A stretch of DNA of 30,538 nucleotides from the IMG/VR virus record IMGVR_UViG_3300009553_000058, positions 1-30,538 of that record, one strand, 5' to 3'. The notes under the pieces are model-generated. The model made no database searches. It saw nothing but the letters and a program-made list of their open reading frames with translations, and had not been told where the DNA came from. The stretch comes from a virus. Below are positions 6,589 through 12,811 of the stretch, one piece after another; within the stretch, counting starts at the first letter, position 1, and the number at the start of each line of letters is the position of its first letter. Made by a program: the position numbers and the translations under genes.

Positions 6589-6912
6589 ATGACACTCATC
6601 GACCAAGAGAAGATCGCCAACGCTATCCTCGATATCAAGTATAACGTACCTAAGACGCCCATGCTCACAGCCGAGGTCCAGCCCTTTGTGGCCCTGTCCG
6701 AGAAACTGGCCGACTCGATCGTGGAGGTGTACCAACAGCAACTGACCGAGATACAGAATAAACTCGAGAAGGCCAAGATCGTAGCAAACGACATCCGAAA
6801 TCTGGCCAAGGATCGAGCTGCCGACATTCAAGACTTTCGCAACCGTGTGGCGGCCTTCAGCAATTCCCTGATCGAGGCCCACGATGAGTTTAACAAGGGA
6901 GACGAGAAATGA
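6589..6912 (+). CDS. Coiled-coil protein, 107 aa
   Basis: The start at 6589 follows GGAG with a spacer close to the local cassette (GGAGTTCTGCC); an in-frame upstream ATG at 6556 lies within the 30-bp element. The protein is almost entirely helical: residues 30-107 (VALSEKLADSIVEVYQQQLTEIQNKLEKAKIVANDIRNLAKDRAADIQDF...) show heptad spacing. No cysteines, no membrane segment. It overlaps the Acb2-like gene by ATGA and opens the counter-defence operon. Function unknown; a defence-related role is guilt by association only. Confidence 0.75.
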   Translation: MTLIDQEKIANAILDIKYNVPKTPMLTAEVQPFVALSEKLADSIVEVYQQQLTEIQNKLEKAKIVANDIRNLAKDRAADIQDFRNRVAAFSNSLIEAHDEFNKGDEK

Positions 6913-7130
6913 CACTCCACGAGTCAACCTTCGACTATCTGAGGCCAACCGACAACCAGGTGGCGAGTATGACTGCCGCCCGTCAGGCAGCAGCAGATTA
7001 CGCTCGCAAACTTGATGAACTGGTCCCGGACGGGCCGGACAAAACCTACCTCTTTCGGAAACTGCGGGAGGCAGCTATGTGGGTAAACGTAGCTATAACC
7101 CGTGGCCCTGATGGGAGCCCGCGCACTTGA
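6909..7130 (+). CDS. Acb2-like (Acb2/Tad1 hairpin) anti-CBASS protein, 73 aa
   Basis: The sequence follows the helical-hairpin pattern of Acb2, the phage sponge that binds cyclic oligonucleotides and blocks CBASS immunity. It has an aromatic start with proline and Gln (FDYLRPTDNQ, residues 8-17), M21 and R25 in a first helix (MTAARQAAADYARKLDELVPDGPD), then a second helix with the hallmark LREAAMWVNVAITR (residues 52-65). The length fits the single-domain family. Family members act as oligomers in the host cytoplasm. It overlaps both neighbours (ATGA and TTGA), so it should be made together with the ParB-methyltransferase, itself a possible anti-restriction protein. Ligand preference cannot be read from sequence. 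Confidence 0.75.
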   Translation: MTLHESTFDYLRPTDNQVASMTAARQAAADYARKLDELVPDGPDKTYLFRKLREAAMWVNVAITRGPDGSPRT

Positions 7131-8434
7131 CCTCCGGTACTTTCCATATCGTCGCGCTTGACTCAATAGTTGTCAAGCGCGACGAGCGCCAGCGGCGAGA
7201 ACTATCTGACATAGACGTTCTGGCTGACTCTATCCGCCGCCTCGGCCTGATCCACCCTATCGTGGTGACGCGGGGCGAACTCGAACTGGTCGCGGGCGAG
7301 CGGCGCCTTGCGGCGTGTACCAAGCTGGGCTGGACCAACATTCCTGTCCACTACACCGACGAGCTCGAGCCCTCGCGCCTTCGAGCTATAGAGCTCGAAG
7401 AGAACATCAAGCGCCAGGACATCACCTGGCAGGACCAGGCCACAGCCGTGCGCGAGTATCACAAGCTACGTCTGGCTGAGGATCCAAACTGGACCCAGTC
7501 CGACACGGCCGAGGCCATTGGCGTCACACGGCAGCACATCGGCAACTTTCTGCTCGTGGCCAACGAGATGCTCAGTGGGAACGCCAAGATAGGTGACCTG
7601 CCCAAACTCTCCACGGCCATAGGCATAGTCCGTCGCGGGATCGAGCGCAAAGACCTGCAGACCCTCGACAAACTGCACGAGTCCTTCTCTGGTGTGGCCC
7701 TCTCGCCCGACCGACCCGAGGACAACATTATCACCGGGGACTTCAGAACCTGGGTCGAGGGCGAAATCGTCCCCAGGTTCAACCTGATCCACTGTGACTT
7801 TCCCTACGGTATCGACGCAGATAACTTCCCACAAGGAGGAGCAGCTTCCCATGGCGGATATCTTGACACTAAAGAGACGTGGTCTCAACTTATTGGAGCG
7901 CTCGATGTTGCTACTAGGCGCATCACCGCCCCCTCGTGCCACCTCATGTTCTGGTTCGCAATGCGACGAGGAGACGAGCGACTCTACGAGCCCACAGCTA
8001 AAGCCCTTGAACGAATGGGCTGGGACATTAACCCCATGCCCCTCGTCTGGCTCAAAAGTGACGGAACTGGCATCATCCCAGACCCCGAGCGAGGCCCCCG
8101 TCAAATCTACGAGACCTGCTTTATTGCATCTCGGGGAGACCGCAAAATTGTTAGAGCTGTTGCAAACGCATATAGCGCTCCAACGGTTTCAGAGAGACAT
8201 ATGTCTGAAAAACCAGAGCCAATGCTACGGCACTTCTTCCGGATGCTCGTGGACGAGAATACAGTTATGCTCGACCCCACCTGTGGAAGTGGAAGTGCAC
8301 TGCGAGCGGCTGACTCCCTGGGTGCAAAATATGTGCTCGGTCTTGAGATCAATGAGGAGTTCGCCGGGCTAGCCCGCGACGCACTAAGTCGTGCACGAGC
8401 GCTGAAGCGCGCAGAAGAACGGGCAGTGAGTTAA
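7127..8434 (+). CDS. ParB-domain / DNA methyltransferase fusion, 435 aa
   Basis: Residues about 5-100 form a ParB/Srx-like N-terminal domain with the nucleotide-binding motif GERR (57-60). Residues about 115-150 hold a helix-turn-helix (TQSDTAEAIGVTRQHIGNFL). From about 200 a DNA amino-methyltransferase follows, with the catalytic DFPY (224-227, a variant of DPPY) and the AdoMet site DPTCGSG (383-389). The catalytic motif precedes the AdoMet motif, as in beta-class N6A/N4C enzymes. ParB-methylase fusions are known in phages and may protect their DNA from restriction. The start is TTG within a TTGA overlap with the Acb2-like stop; a later start is possible but would remove part of the ParB domain. 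Confidence 0.85.
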   Translation: MTSGTFHIVALDSIVVKRDERQRRELSDIDVLADSIRRLGLIHPIVVTRGELELVAGERRLAACTKLGWTNIPVHYTDELEPSRLRAIELEENIKRQDITWQDQATAVREYHKLRLAEDPNWTQSDTAEAIGVTRQHIGNFLLVANEMLSGNAKIGDLPKLSTAIGIVRRGIERKDLQTLDKLHESFSGVALSPDRPEDNIITGDFRTWVEGEIVPRFNLIHCDFPYGIDADNFPQGGAASHGGYLDTKETWSQLIGALDVATRRITAPSCHLMFWFAMRRGDERLYEPTAKALERMGWDINPMPLVWLKSDGTGIIPDPERGPRQIYETCFIASRGDRKIVRAVANAYSAPTVSERHMSEKPEPMLRHFFRMLVDENTVMLDPTCGSGSALRAADSLGAKYVLGLEINEEFAGLARDALSRARALKRAEERAVS

Positions 8435-8477
8435 AGAGCCATATGTTAGATTGGAATTTTTTCCAACTCTGGGAAGT

Positions 8478-8487
8478 GGAGTCTGCC
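8478..8487 (+). promoter_or_regulatory. Stereotyped ribosome-binding cassette GGAGTCTGCC
   Basis: It lies directly before the ATG at 8488 and supports a small gene there. Identical to the site at 4431. Confidence 0.55.
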
Positions 8488-8586
8488 ATGGAAACGTGCC
8501 CTGTCGACATTTGGTATCAAGCTTCGGTCATAATGAACGTGATCCAGTTAATCTTTGGGTCAATTCTCTTAGGACTGCTGCGATAA
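8488..8586 (+). CDS. Very small membrane protein, 32 aa
   Basis: The ATG at 8488 is preceded by the recurrent GGAGTCTGCC cassette, the main evidence that the gene is real. The protein has a short polar start (METCPVDIWYQ) and one hydrophobic helix (ASVIMNVIQLIFGSILLGLLR). Its TAA shares its last base with the ATG of the UDG-exonuclease gene (TAATG), implying coupled translation. An in-frame ATG at 8443 would give 47 aa but has no good ribosome-binding site and begins before a small hairpin (8451-8466). Role unknown. Confidence 0.55.
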   Translation: METCPVDIWYQASVIMNVIQLIFGSILLGLLR

Positions 8587-9611
8587 TGTCGTACAAAATT
8601 GCCCTCGTCGGAGAAGCCTGGGGCGAGCACGAAGAACGTGAGCGTGCGCCCTTTGTCGGCCCGGCGGGCTGGCAGTTAAACACTATGCTGCGCGAGGCCG
8701 GGATCGTGCGGGCAGAGTGTTTCCTGACTAACGTGTTCAACTTGCGTCCCCGGCCTACCAATAAGATCGAGAACTTATGTGCAACCCGCAAGGAGGTACG
8801 TCATGCGCTCCCGCCGCTATCATCTGGCAAGTACATCCGTGATGAATTTCTCCCTGAACTCGAAAGACTTTACGCAGAACTTGCTGCAGCTAATCCAAAT
8901 GTCATTGTCTGCCTCGGGGGAACTGCCTCCTGGGCAGTACTACGTGACGGTAGAATATCGAAACTTCGTGGGACAGTCACGAGTTCCCCCATTCTGGCAG
9001 GCAAAAAGTGCCTCCCAACCTTCCACCCCTCCTACATCCTCCAAGGAGGATACGAAGCCCGACACGTCACAGTCCTCGACCTCCAAAAAGCTCGACGAGA
9101 GTCAGAGTACCCCGAAATCCGTCGTCCTATCCGTACCGTCTACACCGAGCCTCTTATCGGCGATCTCGAGTGGTTCTACACCAACCACATAGAGCCATCC
9201 AAGAGGATGGCAGTGGACATCGAGACCCGGGACGAGCGCATCACTTGTATAGGGTTCGCCCCGGCCACGGATGTGGCCCTGGTAGTTCCCTTCGAGGACC
9301 TGCGCAAGACAGGCGGGAACTACTGGGGCTCCGTCGAAGCTGAACTTGCCGCGTGGGACTGGGTAAGGCGTACCTTGGGTTCTCCGGTGAACAAGGTGTT
9401 CCAGAATGGACTTTTTGATCTACATAGACTGTGGAGGACATACGGTATTCCAGTTAGAAACTGCGAGCACGACACTATGTTACTCAGTCATGCCCTCCAT
9501 CCAGAGTCTCCCAAGGGACTTGCCTTTCTGGGTTCTGTGTACACTGACGAGTCCGCCTGGAAACTCAACATCCGACTCAAGCACAAAGGAACCATAAAGA
9601 AGGAGGAGTAA
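8586..9611 (+). CDS. Uracil-DNA glycosylase fused to the first part of a DnaQ-type 3'-5' exonuclease, 341 aa
   Basis: Residues 1-185 match family 4/5-like uracil-DNA glycosylases: GEAWGEHE (9-16), PFVGPAGW (22-29), LTNVFNLRP and HPS (147-149). Residues about 205-330 begin the 3'-5' proofreading exonuclease of a family A polymerase: Exo I is D211/E213 in VDIETRD and Exo II is N274/D278 in QNGLFDL. Exo III is missing and appears instead at the start of the polymerase ORF at 10102. A UDG domain at the N-terminus of the polymerase is known from SPO1-like phages; here the protein ends after VYTDESAWKLNIRLKHKGTIKKEE. The start at 8586 is the first ATG before the UDG strand SYKIALVGE and overlaps the upstream stop. 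Confidence 0.85.
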   Translation: MSYKIALVGEAWGEHEERERAPFVGPAGWQLNTMLREAGIVRAECFLTNVFNLRPRPTNKIENLCATRKEVRHALPPLSSGKYIRDEFLPELERLYAELAAANPNVIVCLGGTASWAVLRDGRISKLRGTVTSSPILAGKKCLPTFHPSYILQGGYEARHVTVLDLQKARRESEYPEIRRPIRTVYTEPLIGDLEWFYTNHIEPSKRMAVDIETRDERITCIGFAPATDVALVVPFEDLRKTGGNYWGSVEAELAAWDWVRRTLGSPVNKVFQNGLFDLHRLWRTYGIPVRNCEHDTMLLSHALHPESPKGLAFLGSVYTDESAWKLNIRLKHKGTIKKEE

Positions 9612-9612
9612 C

Positions 9613-9768
9613 ATGATCCGGCCAGTTCCTAAGAAGAACTTCCCCTTGCGAGCCTTCCGCGACCTCCGAAACTTCGGTCGTCCCACACAGAAGGCTATCA
9701 ACCACATCCAGATGGCCCGGCGTAACAAGCGCATCAAGATAACCCTCGCCCCTATCAAGGGAGTCTGA
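9613..9768 (+). CDS. Basic small protein inside the divided polymerase locus, 51 aa
   Basis: The ATG at 9613 follows the upstream TAA by one base and has AGGAGGAG 4-11 bases before it. The protein is strongly basic ([24 protein letters not shown]... [18 protein letters not shown]), with lysine and arginine spread along its length, which suggests contact with nucleic acid. It ends one base before the next ATG. I recognise no family. Its location between the two halves of the polymerase makes an accessory role worth testing. Confidence 0.6.
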
Positions 9769-9769
9769 C
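9760..9769 (+). promoter_or_regulatory. Stereotyped ribosome-binding cassette GGAGTCTGAC
   Basis: It lies directly before the ATG at 9770 and overlaps the end of the upstream gene. Fifth member of the set. Confidence 0.6.
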
Positions 9770-10105
9770 ATGCCTATCCCTGCCGCTATTCTTGCCCGGA
9801 TCATCAGCAGCCTGGGTGTGGCCGCGGCCGAGGGCGAGGAAGGCTCGGTCCTGTCCCGACTCGCCGCGCAAGCGGGCATCCACCTCGAGGGTGAGGACGA
9901 GAACGATCTCAAGATCACTATACCCGTGGACAGTACCGCCATCAACGAGATTGGCTACGATGGACAGGGCATAATCAGTGTGACCTTCCGTCGGGGCGGA
10001 TCACTCACCTACGAGTTCCCCGGCACGCCCGAGGAGTTCCTGGCGTTTGCCCTATCCCCCTCGAAGGGAACCTTCTTCAACGAGCACTTCAGAGACCGCG
10101 CATGA
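9770..10105 (+). CDS. KTSC-domain protein, 111 aa
   Basis: Residues about 52-110 ([56 protein letters not shown]) match the KTSC domain. That domain is named after the C-terminus of some lysyl-tRNA synthetases and is frequent as a stand-alone domain in phages; the S-x-I-x-x-I/V-G-Y-D start and [12 protein letters not shown] end are characteristic. The first 50 residues form a small helical, acidic region. Its stop overlaps the polymerase start (ATGA), so the two are probably translated together. The biochemical role of phage KTSC proteins is not established. Confidence 0.8.
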
Positions 10106-11601
10106 AGTCCACCCGCACGGACCTGCTCGAGCCCGGCTGGCCTAAGTCCGAGACCGAACGTCTCTGGATATACAACGGCCTGGACTGCTGTGTAACCCTC
10201 GAGGTTCTAGAAGCTTTGCTTCCCCAACTCGACAACCTGACCACGAGCACCTATACACTCTCGCGTAACCTTCAGGGGCCAGTCCTGGAAATGAACATGA
10301 GAGGAGTACTCATAGATGAACGCGCGCGCCAGCAAGCCATCGACAATTATCGAAGTGACAGCGACCGACTTGAACGGAACCTCTACCGTATTGTTCACGA
10401 GGGCGTTGGATATGTCAACTTCAGAGATTCGGGAAAGACTAAAGCCTGGCGATCCAACAGCCATGTCGCGGCTCTGCTCTATGATGTACTGCGTCTCCCA
10501 GAGGTCCGAAAGAGAAACGATCGAGGCGAAATGGCCCGCACCGTCAACAGAGATGCTCTTGAGCGCCTTCAGATACACTTCATTGGGCAGCCAATCATAT
10601 CCCATATCCTTACTCTTCGAGACTTTGGTAAGAAAATTGGAGTCCTTCAAACGAAGATTGATCGCGATGGCCGCTTGCGTACCTCATACAACATTGCAGG
10701 AACGACGACTGGTCGCTTCTCATCTAGCCTCAATGATTTCGGAAGTGGAGGAAATCTGCAAAACATCGAAGAGCGCCTTCGCAAAATTTTCATCGCTGAC
10801 CCAGGGATGAAGTTTGCCAACATCGACCTCGAGCAGGCCGACTCCCGCAACATAGGAGCACTGTGCTGGAATGTTTTTAGAGACCCGAAATATCTGGATG
10901 CTTGCGAGTCCGGTGACTTGCACACCACAGTCGCTCGAATGTCCCGACCTGAGATGCCCTGGAGTGGAGATACAAAGGCTGACCGTAGGCTGGCCGAACA
11001 ACCATACTACCGTCATTACGGGCTTCGGCATATGTGCAAAGTGCTTGGACACGGTACAAACTACATGGGTTCGCCGTTCGAGATGTCCAAGCACACCAAG
11101 ATCGACCAGTCGACGATCAAAGAGTTCCAAGCGCTCTACTTCCAGACGTTCCCGGCCATCCCGAGGCTCCACGGATGGATAGCCCAGCAACTGCTGGACA
11201 CCGGGAACCTCGTTACGCCCTTCGGCCGCAAGCGCTGGTTCTTCGGCAGGCGCGACGACAAGGATACTCTCAAGCAGGCCGTCGCGCACATGGGCCAGTC
11301 AATGACAGCCGACGAAATGAACTTTGCCATGTTGGCGCTATGGCGCCTCGACATAGTAAACATTATGTTACAAGGTCACGACTCAATACTAGTCCAATAT
11401 GCAGAGGATAAAGAAGATGAGATCATACCACGTGTACTCCAAGCCATGAGAGTCCCGCTCGAACTAGAAGGGGGCCGGCAGTTCACAGTTCCGCTAGATG
11501 TAAAGGTCGGGTGGAACTGGGGTCTAGCCAACGAAGAAAACGCCGACGGACTCTCGAAGTGGCCTGATGCTCGCACCGGCAGGACCAAGACGGCTGGGTA
11601 A
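10102..11601 (+). CDS. Family A DNA polymerase, polymerase part with Exo III motif, 499 aa
   Basis: The N-terminus carries the Exo III motif Y24xxxD28 ([12 protein letters not shown]), which belongs to the exonuclease domain begun in the ORF at 8586. The polymerase domain follows with motif [11 protein letters not shown] (D242), motif [16 protein letters not shown] (R309, K313, Y321) and motif C GHDSI (H426, D427). The residue aligned with E. coli Pol I F762 is His317, and motif C has Ser428 where HDE is usual; both are seen in some phage polymerase groups. The protein replicates phage DNA, presumably assembled with the UDG-exonuclease product. The start overlaps the KTSC stop, and the end overlaps the next gene by 35 bases. 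Confidence 0.85.
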
Positions 11602-12811
11602 CTGGGTAGACACCTACATGGAGTACACGGAAATCCTTCCGTCTCCTCCATTGTTCCGTAAGTGGGCTGCCATATCGGCCGTAGCTTCAGCGGTTGAACG
11701 TAAGATCTGGGTCCGGACCATGGGCTCCGACCTATACCCAGGCTTGTACATCATCTTAGTGGGTCCGCCCGGGGTCGGCAAGGGCCAGGCCATACACCCT
11801 GCGGAGTCTCTCCTCCGCGAAGTCCCAGACCTTCAGGTTGGCCCGTCGGACATGACCACAGCATCGCTGATCGACGCCCTGCACGCTGCGGTGCGCAGGT
11901 TCATTCTCCTGGGCAACCCGCCCTTCGTGGAGTTCAACTCCCTAACTGTCATCTCTCGTGAGCTAGGAGTACTCATTCCCTCCTGGGAAACCTCCCTCAT
12001 GAACAACCTAACGGATATCTACGATGGCTTCACAGTCGATCAGAAACGACGAGGTAAAGATCTCCACATCAAAATCAAGGCTCCACAAATTAACCTTCTG
12101 GGAGCGTGTACTCCTTCATACCTTAATGAAGTCCTTCCTGCGGGAGCATGGGATCAAGGTTTCATATCAAGAACTTTCCTCATATATTCCGGTGAGCGTG
12201 TCGTACGAGACCCATTCGCTGAGGATGCCCAGGCCGATCTCACAGAGCGCCTGCGTGGTGATCTCTTTCACGATCTCAAAACTATAGCCCAAGAGTATGG
12301 GCAGATGAAGTTCACTACGCCCGCCGCGGCCGCACTGAAGGCCTGGATCGCGAACAAGTGTGCTCCCGAACCCAGCCATCAGAAGCTCCAGTTCTACAAT
12401 GCGCGCCGGATCGCACACCTCCTGAAGCTGTGTATGATCTCTAGTATCTCCCAATCGGGCGAGAAGGTGATTGGCCTGGAGCACTACCGCGAGGCCATGA
12501 ACTGGCTCGTCGAGGCCGAGACGTACATGCCAGACATCTTCAAGTCAATGATCTCTGGCGGGGACTCGAATGCTATGGAGGAGGCCTGGAACTATACCTG
12601 GAACCTCTACTCCAAAGAGAACCGGCCCATCGCAGAGCACCGCATCATACACTTCCTACGCGAGCGCGTGCCCGCGCACTCTGTCATGCGAGTACTGGAG
12701 ATCATGATAAAGTCCCGGATGATCGAGGTCATCGTGGGCAGCGGAGGCTTCCAGGGCTACAAACCTACTTCAAGGGAGGATCGTCTGACAGGCGGGCCGA
12801 CTGCTCCCTAG
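11567..12811 (+). CDS. DUF3987-like P-loop ATPase (helicase/primase-associated), 414 aa
   Basis: Walker A is GPPGVGKG (66-73), preceded by [40 protein letters not shown] and LYPGLYIILV, the arrangement of DUF3987-type phage and plasmid ATPases found beside primases and polymerases. Later sections (LLGACTPSYLNEVLPAGAWDQGFISRTFLIY) match the ATPase core, and the C-terminus resembles a winged helix (RIIHFLRERVPAHSVMRVLEIMIKSRMIEVI). It probably acts as a replicative helicase or loader. The ATG at 11567 keeps the conserved WVDTY block; the next ATG (11618) would cut into it. The 3' end overlaps the convergent gene at 12765 by 47 bases. Confidence 0.7.
   Translation: MLAPAGPRRLGNWVDTYMEYTEILPSPPLFRKWAAISAVASAVERKIWVRTMGSDLYPGLYIILVGPPGVGKGQAIHPAESLLREVPDLQVGPSDMTTASLIDALHAAVRRFILLGNPPFVEFNSLTVISRELGVLIPSWETSLMNNLTDIYDGFTVDQKRRGKDLHIKIKAPQINLLGACTPSYLNEVLPAGAWDQGFISRTFLIYSGERVVRDPFAEDAQADLTERLRGDLFHDLKTIAQEYGQMKFTTPAAAALKAWIANKCAPEPSHQKLQFYNARRIAHLLKLCMISSISQSGEKVIGLEHYREAMNWLVEAETYMPDIFKSMISGGDSNAMEEAWNYTWNLYSKENRPIAEHRIIHFLRERVPAHSVMRVLEIMIKSRMIEVIVGSGGFQGYKPTSREDRLTGGPTAP

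Follow-up and report, generated by a model that had tools for sequence, protein, structure and literature searches.

The window analyzed here is the whole 30,538-bp virus record IMGVR_UViG_3300009553_000058 (positions 1 to 30,538). It carries an ORF with UDG and exonuclease domains (ORF1) and, after two small genes, an ORF with a family A polymerase domain (ORF2). In a profile search, PHROG_17 ("DNA polymerase") was matched at 544-789 by ORF1 and at 804-1235 by ORF2, and because the matches are consecutive we read the ORFs as two successive pieces of one polymerase. In loci of this type, two adjacent ORFs together correspond to one polymerase, of which intact kin exist.

Table 1. Genes, domains, and signals at the divided polymerase locus of the window
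Feature	Position	Strand	Basis or remark
UDG-exonuclease half (ORF1), 341 aa	8586..9611	+	Pfam, PHROG, alignment of Exo residues
UDG domain of ORF1	residues 4-154	+	Pfam PF03167, E 2.8e-20
DNA_pol_A_exo1 of ORF1	residues 206-321	+	Pfam; ends at profile position 129 of 173
Exo I, D211/E213	codons 9216-9218, 9222-9224	+	in ORF1
Exo II, N274/D278	codons 9405-9407, 9417-9419	+	in ORF1
Shine-Dalgarno AAGGAGG	9600..9606	+	within final ORF1 codons (..KKEE); serves 51-aa ORF, ATG 9613-9615
51-aa basic ORF	9613..9768	+	cargo gene; only in two near-copies of the window (L001, L031)
KTSC-domain gene, 111 aa	9770..10105	+	Pfam PF13619, E 3.6e-8
Polymerase half (ORF2), 499 aa	10102..11601	+	Exo III first, then family A polymerase domain
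Exo III, Y24/D28	codons 10171-10173, 10183-10185	+	start of polymerase half
DNA_pol_A of ORF2	residues 115-473	+	Pfam, E 2.3e-30, 106 bits vs cut-off 34.3

The tight spacing described in the original prediction was borne out: the 51-aa ORF begins 1 nt past the ORF1 stop (TAA-C-ATG), the KTSC gene begins 1 nt past the stop of the 51-aa ORF (TGA-C-ATG), and the KTSC stop and the polymerase ATG share 4 nt (ATGA). The prediction had also given both small genes ribosome-binding sites of their own, of which a clear one was found for the first. The start of the polymerase gene has a weak Shine-Dalgarno sequence only, and its translation probably relies on coupling to KTSC. The KTSC protein scored above the family cut-off (33.5 bits vs 25), and the 51-aa ORF had no match in Pfam or PHROG. 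Differences between the window and a relative lie at third codon positions in 2/2 cases for the 51-aa gene and 9/11 for the KTSC gene; both therefore look coding, the 51-aa ORF on thin evidence.

The UDG domain (8586-9047) belongs to the UDG superfamily by its Pfam match and resembles type-4 (SPO1-type) UDGs, whose structures are its best solved matches. By eye, the N-terminal Fe-S cysteine pair is absent, and the domain may be inactive or structural. H317 of the polymerase half occupies the motif position equivalent to Klenow F762; the histidine is invariant in 33 polymerase halves and in the fused protein of phage Mel-JY34, and its effect on nucleotide selection is a point of interest.

The exonuclease site in split and fused relatives

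All six residues that the original prediction assigned to Exo I and Exo II in the UDG ORF (D211, E213, N274, and D278) and to Exo III in the polymerase ORF (Y24 and D28) were found, so that the DEDDy set (D, E, D, Y...D) is complete but distributed over two proteins. A scan of IMG/VR gave 80 relatives of the locus. Every IMG/VR locus in which both halves were found (74/74) is broken at the window's place, with gaps of -4 to 1087 bp, and the same break occurs in Caulobacter phage Kuura (L081) and metagenomic locus L090. More distant relatives have an uninterrupted gene (Microcystis phage Mel-JY34, MW202489, Desulfofustis phage LS06-2018-MD01, vir526, and MW202455), as do most of the 26 IMG/VR loci around Mel-JY34. 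Across 78 aligned rows, the six Exo residues are invariant in 52/52 split pairs, 19/19 fused relatives, and 7 relatives broken elsewhere. Alignment to the intact UDG-exo-pol relatives revealed no residue missing at the break and no Exo III of its own in ORF1. The fused proteins have a short loop between Exo II and Exo III (..YWKDEGKEW....WxYNxKDA..); in the split proteins the first ends ..WKLMRxRGKTTIKRDE and the second opens MKxIxTxxLxP.. (followed by 14 protein letters not shown here), a gain of ~10-15 residues on each side of the break.

In a maximum-likelihood tree (quick method, midpoint root), the 52 split rows form one clade with a support of 100, sister to fused UDG-exo-pol proteins whose genes stand in the same order (methyltransferase, pol, DUF3987). 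No fused member was seen within the 52 rows of the split clade, and the simplest reading of these sequences would be one fission with no re-fusion in the sample.

Among 33 diverse polymerase halves (37-81% identity to that of the window), W22, Y24, N25, G26, D28, and T32 are invariant. These are 6 of 51 invariant columns, they fall within residues 22-32 around Exo III, and the chance of 6 invariant positions in 11 consecutive columns is ~3e-4. This pattern argues for strong selection on the proofreading site. Each of the contigs searched (13/13) had a single match to DNA_pol_A and none to DNA_pol_B, so the divided enzyme is probably the phage's sole replicase. Pairwise identities correlate as strongly between exo and pol (r 0.90) as they do, within one chain, between UDG and exo (r 0.85), and the pairwise identity patterns gave no clear sign of half-swapping among lineages. 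Conserved residues speak of selection, whereas we infer that the halves bind each other rather than other partners.

The halves might instead stay apart, leaving a polymerase without proofreading and a UDG-exo protein that acts as a separate repair enzyme. UDG is a repair domain and separate genes permit separate use, although these points are general knowledge and no result here favors them. Exo III would then be free to decay, yet its Y, N, and D and their neighbors are invariant. Pol I-type exonucleases need the Exo III aspartate (Klenow Y497/D501), which the exo half would be without. We consider separate halves very unlikely.

The halves of two relatives, L068 (L068:1766-1774) and L067 (L067:882-890), share a frame and are parted by one TAG and one codon. 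Amber reassignment was considered for these contigs on 4 kb of sequence; their polymerase ORF ends in TAA, and their other frames end with all three stops. The joint could be an amber read-through or a minimal split. We modeled L068 as a natural joined chain (TAG as Q) using AlphaFold2 and a 58-row alignment that included fused relatives and left out two rows of an annotated record. The chain gave one Klenow-like fold (mean pLDDT 89.6, pTM 0.87), in which disorder (pLDDT below 50) is confined to the joint at 359-370 and one other loop at 560-578. Its best solved match in Foldseek was Klenow/Pol I (E 4.8e-28, TM 0.74 by target), and a single HMM alignment to Klenow extends from Exo I through both halves to the polymerase C-terminus. 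Residues 374-377, which open the polymerase half (RIIN), adopt a strand, and the Exo III helix begins at 389, in a block with a pLDDT of ~76-94. When the polymerase half of the window was modeled alone (pLDDT 86.3, pTM 0.80), its first 40 residues scored 61-73 and the strand was missing; this comparison, which is between different proteins and different alignments, suggests that the start of the polymerase half folds against the other half. As a linked-chain prediction with fused relatives in the alignment, the model would report on the compatibility of the halves, not on their affinity.

Contents and translation of the gap

The original prediction further proposed that the two intervening proteins may belong to the polymerase complex, where they would be structural subunits bridging its halves. 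Their genes do lie between the halves with tight spacing, all 14 tree rows of the window's subclade retain the KTSC gene, which requires one change on the tree, and the KTSC domain has been described as DNA-binding (PMC9503650). The proposal is not supported, as the same split in relatives has an empty gap or other genes. There is no intervening gene in at least six split lineages (L026, L058, L062, L067/L068, L075/L076, and L078), the 51-aa gene is confined to near-copies, and no KTSC gene was found in 9/9 sister contigs (26-50 kb) outside the window's subclade, which were all the other split members tested. Searching annotated phages by tblastn returned no KTSC relatives. Moreover, the KTSC protein is only ~50% identical where its flanks are ~80% identical. 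A bridge made of these small proteins is thus quite improbable, and KTSC could still have a role inside the window's own subclade, which retains it stably.

The content of the gap ranges from none up to 1.1 kb. HNH_3 nucleases lie in the gaps of L019, L022, L030, L050 (twice), and L059, and that of L027 is a near-copy of the one in L019; L041 has a weak LAGLIDADG-like ORF, below the cut-off. Nucleoside deoxyribosyltransferase-like genes were identified by test in L040, L059, L061, and L070 and by eye in others, and L090 has an RNase H. The homing nucleases in the gap show 6 changes in 6 tree rows and are therefore recent, separate gains; the deoxyribosyltransferase group also shows 6 changes. 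The states behind both counts were scored partly by eye. The gap at the split is at least 120 bp in 88% of 74 loci. The junction upstream of the UDG gene reaches this length in 62% of 53 loci and holds cargo too, and the polymerase-DUF3987 junction is closed (at least 120 bp in 2% of 62 loci). Because the UDG-upstream junction also has cargo, the split gap is a cargo site that is not unique but one of at least two in the operon.

L077 has a small Acb2/Tad1-hairpin-like gene in its gap (L077:4043-4267; Pfam E 1e-4, below the cut-off), and the window has a gene of similar appearance (6909-7130) upstream of its methyltransferase gene. This gene seems to move between cargo sites and is possibly a counter-defense gene. 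The polymerase half of the same contig (L077:4532-6003) gives matches in two frames, one for residues 1-224 and one for residues 229-491, and the contig may hold a frameshift.

The tail of the first half holds Shine-Dalgarno matches of at least 5 nt in 29/56 distinct loci, compared with ~6% of control windows and with a mean of 18.6 and a maximum of 27 loci in 500 synonymous shuffles. In 53/56 loci, a start codon is found no more than a few bases from the stop. We interpret the ORF1-type tail as doubling as a ribosome-binding site, so part of its conservation may serve translation rather than protein contact.

Other breaks and the origin of the split

The polymerase gene family has been broken at three or more places. 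An HNH_3-domain gene just upstream of the Exo I motif parts UDG from exo-pol in L114 (L114:5626-5967; near-copy L108:1343-1684). The nuclease ORF overlaps both of its neighbors, the UDG half at its end and the exo-pol half at its start, and the UDG-exo-pol gene is uninterrupted in the nearest kin, L093/L095, which have ~86-89% DNA identity to L114/L108. We read L114/L108 as a recent gene fission by a homing nuclease. A third break point falls between the NLQN motif and polymerase motif A (L084:5662-6216, L105:6644-6796, L110:5248-5520, and L116:6676-7573), with different genes in each gap, and Vibrio phage VS-ABTNL-3 is also broken just before polymerase motif A. By analogy, a nuclease origin of the window's break is plausible but unproven; most split members have no homing nuclease at this junction, and a nuclease role in the first break is therefore conjecture.

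If the gap were removed or bypassed, by a group I intron, an intein, ribosomal bypass, or read-through, a single chain would result. Introns and inteins do occur in phage polymerase genes (PMC10580990, PMC6892783), and the lone in-frame TAG and codon of L067/L068 would fit read-through. However, no Rfam ribozyme was detected in 12 relatives at the gathering score, and window positions 8400-11700, searched at Rfam E up to 1, gave one chance-level match to an unrelated family. Gap sequences are unrelated among members, several members have an overlapping stop and start with their halves out of frame, and start codons and Shine-Dalgarno sites are in place in most. We regard a single chain as highly improbable. 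An intron- or intein-interrupted polymerase was considered as a class and set aside, as there was no Rfam intron and the halves of overlapping members are in different frames. Finally, frameshifts can occur in metagenomic contigs, and L077 apparently has one in its polymerase half. Even so, the likelihood of a sequencing or assembly error is negligible, and a frameshift artifact is excluded, because the same break recurs in over 70 contigs, which come from many metagenomes, and in Kuura, an isolated phage with an assembly that was verified by restriction digestion (PMC9959647).

A probable two-gene replicase and its known counterparts

We conclude that the locus very probably encodes a UDG-exo-pol family A replicase from two genes, which arose by one ancient fission, whose halves reassemble, and whose gap is a cargo junction. 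That the two proteins must assemble to proofread is strongly implied by the retention of all Exo residues, their conservation, the history of the gene, and the modeling. On sequences and models together, we infer a heterodimer, and this reading is well supported. According to this two-gene model, a single ancient fission would have occurred in the Exo II-Exo III loop. The UDG-exo and polymerase proteins would be made from one tight operon and would fold together into the usual Klenow-like body, with the Exo III helix of the polymerase half presumably completing the exonuclease active site of the other half. The junction would be a stop/Shine-Dalgarno/start module at which unrelated small genes could be gained repeatedly with the enzyme undisturbed; those gained by the window would be the 51-aa gene and KTSC. 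The original break was perhaps made by a homing nuclease gene, as is in progress in a relative, and this is the least certain step. Of note, the split might be kept because it is useful, with proofreading as a detachable subunit that is varied through the ratio or timing of UDG-exo, or with UDG-exo used alone for repair, and with gap genes tuning the ratio. We think this unlikely; if true, detachable proofreading would account for the lack of re-fusion in the 52-row clade.

The open-access literature searched contained no ancient, conserved break inside the proofreading site of a UDG-bearing family A replicase, and nothing on UDG-polymerase fusions. The locus would offer a replicase whose proofreading site has been divided between two chains in nature and over a long time. 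It is a system for studying how the fission of a gene can leave its active site working, whether the amount of proofreading can be adjusted, and how essential genes become landing sites for cargo through homing nuclease genes. Kuura is a cultured phage with a testable pair (Kuura_029 and Kuura_026). Its UDG-exo half (Kuura_029, L081:4267-5376) is annotated as a hypothetical protein, so the proofreading part of this group's replicase has been missed in annotation.

Intact Mel-JY34 and its relatives share the domain order, Exo residues, and neighboring genes of the split loci, but have one uninterrupted gene, a short Exo II-Exo III loop (WKDEGKEW), and no extra tails. The OM43 phages MEP401 and MEP402 likewise encode their family A polymerase by two ORFs, which flank a small unknown ORF (PMC10580990). 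In these phages, however, the first ORF comprises the exonuclease and an N-terminal part of the polymerase domain; the proofreading site is whole, and it is the polymerase domain that is interrupted, as in L084, L105, L110, and L116. In Aeromonas phage Aeh1, an essential enzyme, NrdA, is split by insertion of mobE into two pieces that together restore full enzyme activity (PMC2988022); there the split was made by a homing nuclease gene, but the enzyme is a different one and the nuclease gene itself lies in the gap. In the Aeromonas T4-like phages 25 and 44RR, gene 43 is split into 43A and 43B, the products of which copurify and have polymerase activity (PMC2988022). As in the window, the two replicase genes are neighbors separated by a mobile or intergenic element, whereas 43A/43B are of family B, have no UDG, are reported from few phages, and are separated by a homing nuclease or by untranslated sequence. 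Aeromonas 43A/43B is a precedent for split phage replicases that function as two chains; an ancient break inside the exonuclease site is new within the open-access literature searched.
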